A stretch of DNA of 64,000 nt from Pseudomonas sp. Tri1 (GTDB taxonomy: Bacteria; Pseudomonadota; Gammaproteobacteria; Pseudomonadales; Pseudomonadaceae), in assembly GCF_017968885.1 (NCBI RefSeq), contig NZ_CP072913.1:1968001-2032000 (forward strand), given 5' to 3'. The translations under genes and the position numbers were made by a program. Positions 24,661-26,275 of the stretch are shown here, piece after piece. Position 1 is the stretch's first letter. Every line of letters starts with the position of its first letter. A model generated the notes under the pieces. The model was not told the origin of the DNA. It did not search any database and saw only the letters and a program-made list of their open reading frames with translations.

Positions 24661-24897
24661 ATGCCTCCTGAATGCAAGCTGTTCAGCACCCTGGGTTGCC
24701 ACCTCTGTGAAGTGGCCGAAGCGGAGTTGATGCCTTTGGTTGAACATGGACTGTTGGTGGAGCTGGTGGATATCAGCGAAAGCGAAGCGATGGCTGAGGC
24801 CTATGGGCTACGAATCCCGGTCCTGCGCAGAATCGATACTGGCGCAGAGTTGGACTGGCCTTTTGATGCCGAACAGGTTGTCGCGTTTCTGCGCTGA
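24661..24897 (+). CDS. Glutaredoxin-like protein, DUF836 family
   Basis: The 78-residue protein has a thioredoxin-like fold with the redox motif CHLC (residues 13-16) in LFSTLGCHLCEVAEAEL. A cis-proline context (RIPVLRR, about residue 50) and a C-terminal AEQVVAFLR helix also fit. DUF836 proteins are small cytosolic glutaredoxin relatives with unknown partners. The ATG directly follows a CTACCGTC leader without a clear ribosome site. Its stop is about 60 bases before the LexA box of the next gene, so that gene probably has its own promoter. Confidence 0.82.
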   Translation: MPPECKLFSTLGCHLCEVAEAELMPLVEHGLLVELVDISESEAMAEAYGLRIPVLRRIDTGAELDWPFDAEQVVAFLR

Positions 24898-24958
24898 TAG
24901 CCTTTCCACTCATCGTATCTACATGCAGGTCATTGGCGAAAATCGCATTCTTCGGTTA

Positions 24959-24974
24959 CTGTATGCCCATACAG
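24959..24974 (+). promoter_or_regulatory. LexA (SOS) box
   Basis: CTGTATGCCCATACAG is a perfect 16-base palindrome of the form CTGTAT-N4-ATACAG, the LexA consensus of gamma-proteobacteria. It lies 18 bases before the next start codon and overlaps the likely promoter, so the downstream gene should be damage-inducible. Confidence 0.88.
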
Positions 24975-24992
24975 CTATCTGGAGTGCACCCC

Positions 24993-25313
24993 TTGGTCAA
25001 TGTCGAACAATTGAAGAACAGCGTGAACCGGATGTCCGTGGACGTTGTGCGCGAGGCTGTCCAGGAGTTACGCCTGGACGGGCTGGTGACCGAAGGCAAG
25101 ACCCCCTTCAACAAACTGCATTTCAACACCTGCTTTGCCGAGATTGAAGCGTTGTTCCAGCGTGCCGGCTACCATAAGCAGCTGGATGTGGTCGGTTACC
25201 AGGGCCTGTTGTACGCATTGTACGATCCGGGGCGCTGGGAGGCGGTGGAAGTGCTGCGCTGGTTGAAAGAATTCACCGAGGCGGCGGCGAAGCCAACGTC
25301 GATCCCGGCCTGA
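24993..25313 (+). CDS. Small uncharacterised protein, predicted SOS-regulated
   Basis: The 106-residue cytosolic protein is mostly helical and has no signal peptide or transmembrane segment. Recognisable features are SVNRMSVDVVREAVQELRLDGLV, which looks like a helix-turn or winged-helix fragment, and HFNTCFAEIEALFQRAGYHK. I do not recognise the family. The start is a TTG with GGAG 8 bases upstream; an ATG frame opening at 24933 would begin upstream of the LexA box and was rejected. The perfect LexA box immediately before it is the best clue: the protein is probably made after DNA damage. It could be a checkpoint or repair accessory, but nothing in the sequence proves that. Confidence 0.8.
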   Translation: MVNVEQLKNSVNRMSVDVVREAVQELRLDGLVTEGKTPFNKLHFNTCFAEIEALFQRAGYHKQLDVVGYQGLLYALYDPGRWEAVEVLRWLKEFTEAAAKPTSIPA

Positions 25314-25384
25314 AGCAATCACTACTGGGCTGGCTGGCGCGACTGGCAGATAATGCTGCCCTGCAAAATGGCTAAGAGTCTTCA

Positions 25385-26275
25385 ATGTCCGGTTCCTCGT
25401 TTTCCGCTGCCCACCATCAAGCCAGTACGTTGTATCTGCCCCCCGGTTCCTGGCAGACGGTATTGGAGTGCCTGTGTGAGCATTTCAGTGCTATCAGCCG
25501 CGAGCAATGGCTGGACCGCATCGCCCGGGGGAGGGTGCTGGATGGGGAGGGCAAGGCGATCGGTGTCGACTTGCCCTACCGTGAAGGCCTGCGCATCCAC
25601 TATTTTCGTGAAGTGCCCGACGAGAAGCCGATCCCCGTGCTGGAGTCGATCCTGTATGCCGACGAGCATTTGGTGGTGGCGGACAAACCGCATTTTTTGC
25701 CGGTCACTCCGGCAGGCGAATATGTCGAGCAAACCCTGTTGCGACGACTGATCCGGCGACTGGACAATCCCCATCTGGTGCCGTTGCATCGTATCGATCG
25801 GCACACGGCCGGGCTGGTGCTGTTTTCAGCCAACCCGCACACTCGTTCGGCTTATCAATCGCTGTTTCCCACCCGGCAGATCGACAAGCGCTACCAGGCC
25901 ATTGCTCGCGCGCTGCCTGAATTAACCTTTCCTAGGGTGCATAAAAGCCGAATGATCGATGGCGAACCGTTCTTCCGGATGCAGGAAGGTCCGGGCGAAC
26001 CCAATACCGAGACGACCATTGAGGTGCTGGAAAGAAACGGCGAGCTGTGGCGCTATGGCCTGTATCCGGTTACGGGCAAGAAGCACCAGTTGCGGGTTCA
26101 CATGAACGCCCTTGGCGCCGTCATCTGTAACGATCCGTTTTATCCTGATGTGCTGCGGGACGCCGATGACGACTACGCCAATCCACTTAAGCTGCTGGCC
26201 CAAGGGCTGCGTTTCGTCGATCCCGTCACTGGCCAGGAACGTGTTTTTGAAAGCGGCATTACGCTGCAGTGGTAA
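25385..26275 (+). CDS. RluA-family pseudouridine synthase
   Basis: The 296-residue protein has the RluA catalytic motif HRIDRHTAGLVLF (near residue 139), in which the Asp after HRI is the catalytic residue. It also has the N-terminal VADKPHFLPVTPAG and the C-terminal KKHQLRVHMNALG typical of the family. It isomerises uridine to pseudouridine in rRNA or tRNA; the target position cannot be read from sequence. There is an S4-like N-terminal region (EQWLDRIARGRVL) that may bind RNA. It is followed by a bidirectional terminator that it shares with the convergent lipoprotein gene. The ribosome site before the ATG is weak. Confidence 0.9.
   Translation: MSGSSFSAAHHQASTLYLPPGSWQTVLECLCEHFSAISREQWLDRIARGRVLDGEGKAIGVDLPYREGLRIHYFREVPDEKPIPVLESILYADEHLVVADKPHFLPVTPAGEYVEQTLLRRLIRRLDNPHLVPLHRIDRHTAGLVLFSANPHTRSAYQSLFPTRQIDKRYQAIARALPELTFPRVHKSRMIDGEPFFRMQEGPGEPNTETTIEVLERNGELWRYGLYPVTGKKHQLRVHMNALGAVICNDPFYPDVLRDADDDYANPLKLLAQGLRFVDPVTGQERVFESGITLQW

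Follow-up and report, generated by a model that had tools for sequence, protein, structure and literature searches.

A predicted LexA-controlled ortholog of PA0922 in Pseudomonas sp. Tri1 and the probable umuDC origin of its SOS switch

RecA-stimulated cleavage of LexA, which relieves repression of the genes under its control, is the established mechanism of the SOS response. The LexA regulon of Pseudomonas aeruginosa is small, with about 15 genes according to the accessible parts of the literature. One of its members, PA0922, is divergent from dinB and has a LexA box (PMC8944484, accessible part), and it was up 3.7-fold after exposure to hydrogen peroxide (PMC1250226, table). After UV-C, PA1044 and PA1045 were the only ones unchanged among 15 known SOS genes; PA0922 is not named in the accessible part of that paper (PMC12796719), and the response would include it if it is one of the 15. 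No function or phenotype for PA0922 was found in print within the portions of the sources at hand, and the hydrogen peroxide and rubredoxin-reductase tables list it without a function. The portion at hand of a paper on plasmid cost in fluorescens SBW25 yielded no mapping to the PA0922-family gene. LexA regulation is already known for PA0922; what the locus described here adds is the probable derivation of its switch from umuDC, together with a testable link to translesion synthesis. For a LexA-regulon member for which no published function was found, the locus gives a specific connection with both umuDC and dinB that can be tested.

The window, that is, the whole 64,000 nt stretch of the Pseudomonas sp. 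Tri1 genome that was analysed, carries a PA0922-family gene behind a perfect LexA box (Table 1). The initial annotation had described a perfect SOS box lying 18 bases before a TTG start, with GGAG at 8 bases, and all of these are present in the sequence as described. The reading frame is genuine, since across 158 homologous loci the differences from the window copy are biased by codon position (1895, 1090 and 6120 at positions 1, 2 and 3, respectively), and no internal stop was found in the first 94 codons of the gene in any of them.

Table 1. Features of the PA0922-family locus in the window (positions are those of the 64,000 nt stretch).
Feature	Position	Strand	Remarks
Glutaredoxin-like (PF05768) gene	24661..24897	+	Upstream neighbour; locus marker in relatives
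Candidate -35-like element, TTGGCG	24933..24938	+	Proposed; 18 nt between this and the -10-like TACTGT
Candidate -10-like element, TACTGT	24957..24962	+	Overlaps the LexA box; -10 role proposed
LexA operator (SOS box), CTGTATGCCCATACAG	24959..24974	+	Perfect CTGT-N8-ACAG; by comparison, probably once the operator of a umuDC operon since lost
Ribosome-binding site, GGAG	24981..24984	+	From sequence; 8 nt 5' of the TTG; possibly the former umuD site
TTG start codon	24993..24995	+	18 nt past the box
PA0922-family gene	24993..25313	+	106 residues; stop ends at 25313
RluA-family pseudouridine synthase gene	25385..26275	+	Downstream neighbour; starts 71 nt past the PA0922-family stop

The protein had been assigned to no recognised family, and it gave no match above cut-off to Pfam, NCBIfam, PHROG or PADLOC models. 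Its description as an orphan did not hold up: of 198 Pseudomonadaceae genomes sampled, 78 carry the gene, always in a single copy, and these represent 5 of 19 genera (a false match in genome G049 having been dropped); it is also the ortholog of a LexA-regulon member. A class-wide sample contained it in one genome of 369, the window's own. The P. aeruginosa ortholog (WP_003086015.1) shows 72.5% identity over 96% of the query and is divergent from dinB; its own box, CTGTATATTCGTACAG, starts 68 nt 5' of its ATG, and a tRNA-like sequence was seen by eye between dinB and the box. This protein was equated with PA0922 through its position opposite dinB as given in the accessible part of PMC8944484, rather than through a database cross-reference. 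With high identity over the full length, a single copy per genome and an own box, the window gene is, on sequence comparison, the ortholog of PA0922. The surroundings differ, PA0922 being divergent from dinB whereas the window gene stands between the glutaredoxin-like and RluA-family genes, behind a short leader of probable umuD origin. PA1044, from the regulon list, had been considered as the P. aeruginosa counterpart and was rejected when the dinB neighbourhood showed PA0922. The P. aeruginosa record in which the ortholog was found beside dinB, an 847-kb plasmid (megaplasmid; NZ_CP131792.1), includes a chromosome-like stretch with gacS, dinB, the PA0922 ortholog and mprF and, further on, aruC and aruF.

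The eight fixed bases of the box are unremarkable within the window, where 20 sites occur at no more than one mismatch (four of them perfect) against 19.9 expected. Genome-wide, CTGT-N8-ACAG was found at 70 sites compared with 22 for the reversed control, and the stricter CTGTA-N6-TACAG at seven compared with two; downstream of two of these seven (L186 and L187), NCBIfam named nothing. It is conservation across homologous loci, and not the bare pattern within the window, that establishes the box as real. Two sets of loci were compared, the best 80 of 433 relatives from named genomes and 79 loci from the sample of 198 Pseudomonadaceae genomes; one false match (L174, genome G049; 36% identity) was dropped before counting, leaving 158 loci that are related and partly redundant and that include the window's own (L081). 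All 80 loci of the named-genome set (the best 80 of 433) have a perfect box within 150 nt upstream. A box restricted to this one strain had been named in advance as a result that would speak against LexA control, and the opposite was found: 148 of the 158 loci carry a perfect CTGT-N8-ACAG within 200 nt upstream of the PA0922-family gene, one of the 148 (L162) being doubtful because its perfect site is inside the neighbouring gene and a one-mismatch site is nearer. In two more, L085 and L092, the perfect box stands farther up (-514 and -519), in front of umuD, and the remaining eight have a one-mismatch site upstream. By comparison, of 26,299 random 200-nt windows placed elsewhere in these loci, 31 held a perfect site. 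The distance between box and start is highly variable, and the gene is found in several different neighbourhoods. Control boxes in the same genome lie ahead of a PA0069-family radical SAM gene, topB (topoisomerase III) and a YebG-like gene (36 bits against a cut-off of 161), and lexA carries its own box. An operator of the CTGT-N8-ACAG type is found at the promoter and is kept in the orthologs, and the PA0922-family gene is almost certainly under LexA control, as far as sequence can tell.

A strict consensus promoter scan of the region gave no promoter, and the promoter elements in Table 1 are for that reason proposed ones. Across 94 loci, TTGGC is kept at -26 to -22 from the box (T 84%, T 98%, G 88%, G 98%, C 89%), as is TACTGT (T 100%, A 97%, C 100%, T 100%, G 100%, T 100%; the last four bases belong to the box by selection). 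This arrangement, overlapping the box, is conserved in fluorescens-type loci. Because the conserved TACTGT overlaps the box, LexA bound there would cover the -10 region and keep the gene repressed. Cleavage of LexA, stimulated by RecA, would release this repression and lead to expression after DNA damage, as predicted for the site from its sequence.

Both predicted structures of the PA0922-family protein are of low confidence. The initial annotation had noted a winged-helix-like stretch near the N-terminus. In sequence, the protein resembles the C-terminal winged helix of RPA32 (RPA_C), with a sub-threshold Pfam match (E 0.061) and four RPA32 C-terminal chains at E 0.62-1.5; this is confined to residues 2-34, a likeness of one part of the protein and not family membership. 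PA2723 of P. aeruginosa (6tcb) shares 6% identity, in a model with a mean pLDDT of 57.8; it was absent from the sequence-profile list and was not matched by the first structure model. The N-terminal likeness would suit a DNA-binding protein that regulates a part of the SOS response, its helix-turn-helix-like segment attaching to DNA or to a partner to tune a small number of genes. However, it lies below threshold, no family match exceeded its cut-off, and most invariant residues fall in 36-91, outside the helix-turn-helix-like part; moreover, RPA32 C-domains bind proteins rather than DNA. Many named relatives carry the NCBI name 'transcriptional regulator', but names assigned by automatic annotation do not count as evidence. 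A precedent exists in DdrR of Acinetobacter, the UmuDAb corepressor, which is small, DNA damage-induced and encoded beside a umuD-type gene (PMC11332147, accessible part); however, Acinetobacter lacks LexA, its operator is atypical, and no sequence relation was seen here. A regulatory role is considered doubtful, and an accessory role in damage tolerance is preferred for its links to umuDC and dinB.

Among the described systems near to this locus are the umuDC (Pol V) SOS operons of Pseudomonas, which in some relatives (L085, L092 and L191-L194) occupy the same place, with the same kind of operator and promoter flank. In L085 and L092, a UmuD-like S24 gene (PF00717) sits between the box and the PA0922-family gene, and in L191-L193 umuD runs directly into the PA0922-family gene, so that five loci keep umuD alone between box and gene. 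A umuD search of 199 genomes of the genus gave a match in 48; the best 12 loci were examined, and all 12 have a perfect box just 5' of umuD. One of these, extended as L234 (from L194), reads box, umuD, umuC, 56 nt, PA0922-family gene and RluA-family gene, its UmuC scoring 467.5 bits (cut-off 431) and its umuD product 58.2 bits (cut-off 110). This complete order, with the gene directly behind umuC and one operator, was found in that one genome only, and in the other eight of the best 12 umuD loci no PA0922-family gene was found next to umuD. In contrast to these operons, the window has no umuD or umuC at this place, while a more distant umuC (53%) is found elsewhere in its genome. Strict dependence of the PA0922-family gene on Pol V was considered and rejected, since umuC (E <= 1e-90) is present in 29 of 78 genomes with the gene compared with 66 of 120 without it (198 genomes, counted by hand).

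The catalytic residues of E. coli UmuD are Lys and Ser. In the UmuD-like protein of L085, an Arg aligns with the catalytic Lys, and it is kept in 13 rows of the alignment (L085 and L191-L202); several of these proteins also lack the catalytic Ser, with DDG, DDN, ADD or DDT in its place. With Arg at the Lys position and Ser missing in several, these proteins may be incapable of self-cleavage. A umuC gene follows umuD in L194-L199 and L202, and a partial one in L200.

Relics of umuDC are present in loci that no longer carry it. The leader of L066, where umuD is absent, still holds ATGTCTCTCACC, the first four umuD codons including the start, and the 169-nt leader region of L094, where umuDC is absent, matches the post-umuC spacer of L234 with a score of 38, where the highest-scoring of 2000 shuffles reached 15. 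A match at p <= 0.01 to the umuD leaders of this locus was obtained for 34 of 46 long leaders and for 3 of 8 umuD leaders taken from other loci, and in two sets of control leaders for 1 of 55 and none of 16; the shuffles preserve base composition only, and the leaders, the 46 included, are related and not independent. The window's own 18-nt leader matches umuD leaders weakly (score 8, p = 0.10); p <= 0.05 is reached by only 5 of 17 window-type short leaders and by none of the 27 of the -39 type. A umuDC origin for the window's own copy is argued from the shared locus, the promoter flank and the tree, and not from the short leader.

In a midpoint-rooted tree of 99 loci based on two genes, all 99 descend from the common ancestor of the loci that bear umuD or umuDC. 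The root separates a clade of 10, in which the umuDC locus L234 pairs with L094 (support 1.0), from a larger group, in which five umuD loci (support 0.97) form the sister clade of the 84 that lack umuD; L066 is the first branch among these 84. This suggests, as the simplest history, that umuC was lost, then umuD, with operator and gene being kept. An alternative is that the PA0922-family gene already had a LexA box ahead of it and that umuDC entered between the two, in one insertion or several. In favour of this, rulAB-type genes occur on plasmids (PMC4542609, accessible part), and in different surroundings the gene is preceded by a box of its own, in loci where no umuC was found. Against insertion are the umuD start codons left in the umuD-less L066, the post-umuC spacer left in the umuDC-less L094, and the tree, where loci with umuDC or umuD are found to either side of the (midpoint) root, which together make it rather improbable. 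The switch at this locus is, very probably, of umuDC origin. An ancestral umuDC operon would have had the PA0922-family gene as its third cistron under one operator, and deletion of umuC and then of umuD would have moved the gene up behind the retained operator; the ribosome-binding site was probably inherited from the operon as well. An SOS operator would then be able to survive the loss of its operon and be taken over by the gene that follows, which is one concrete way for SOS regulons to change their content.

A switch derived from umuDC also hints at a role for the gene in DNA damage tolerance. Among the functions put forward in the initial annotation, that of a repair accessory fits best because of the links to umuDC and dinB, although the role itself remains a prediction. 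As its most likely role, the protein would assist damage tolerance or translesion synthesis, and its N-terminal helix-turn-helix-like module may serve to contact protein or DNA. The translesion-accessory function in particular is put forward tentatively, whereas the reading as a whole, a LexA-controlled PA0922 ortholog with a switch inherited from umuDC and an accessory role in damage tolerance, is considered somewhat probable. A more speculative and rather unlikely extension would make the PA0922 family an unrecognised third component of SOS translesion synthesis in Pseudomonas. It would be a small protein that partners Y-family polymerases, whose gene once belonged to a umuDC operon at this locus, faces dinB in P. 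aeruginosa, and here stayed behind the umuDC switch when this copy of umuDC disappeared. Small SOS-controlled proteins of about this size often delay division or growth, but a checkpoint protein of that kind, or the cell-division inhibitor first proposed, is highly improbable here and not needed, as the genome already has a SulA match over cut-off (2171969-2172193) adjoining lexA, a Pfam scan of the PA0922-family protein gave no SulA (PF03846) match up to E 1, and no membrane segment was seen by eye.

The 71-nt gap to the RluA-family gene (25314-25384) contains no terminator-like site on the + strand, and SOS transcription may for this reason run on into that gene, the product of which scores below the cut-off of the RluA model. 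In P. putida, loss of TruA or RluA activity leads to a higher mutation frequency (PMC7822408, accessible part).

Two other boxed sites of the genome bear mention. At L186 (C1:5921285), a perfect box, CTGTATGTACATACAG, is found with a start offset of 68 nt ahead of a 424-residue reading frame that has no NCBIfam match and that reads like a levansucrase. At L185/L203 (C1:4522977 onward), a boxed DUF1654 gene has an endA-like gene no more than about 10 nt behind it, whose score of 264.6 bits falls short of the cut-off (372). A perfect box lies within 200 nt of the DUF1654 gene in 27 of 30 loci examined, and the endA-like endonuclease, encoded so closely behind the boxed gene, may be SOS-controlled as well.
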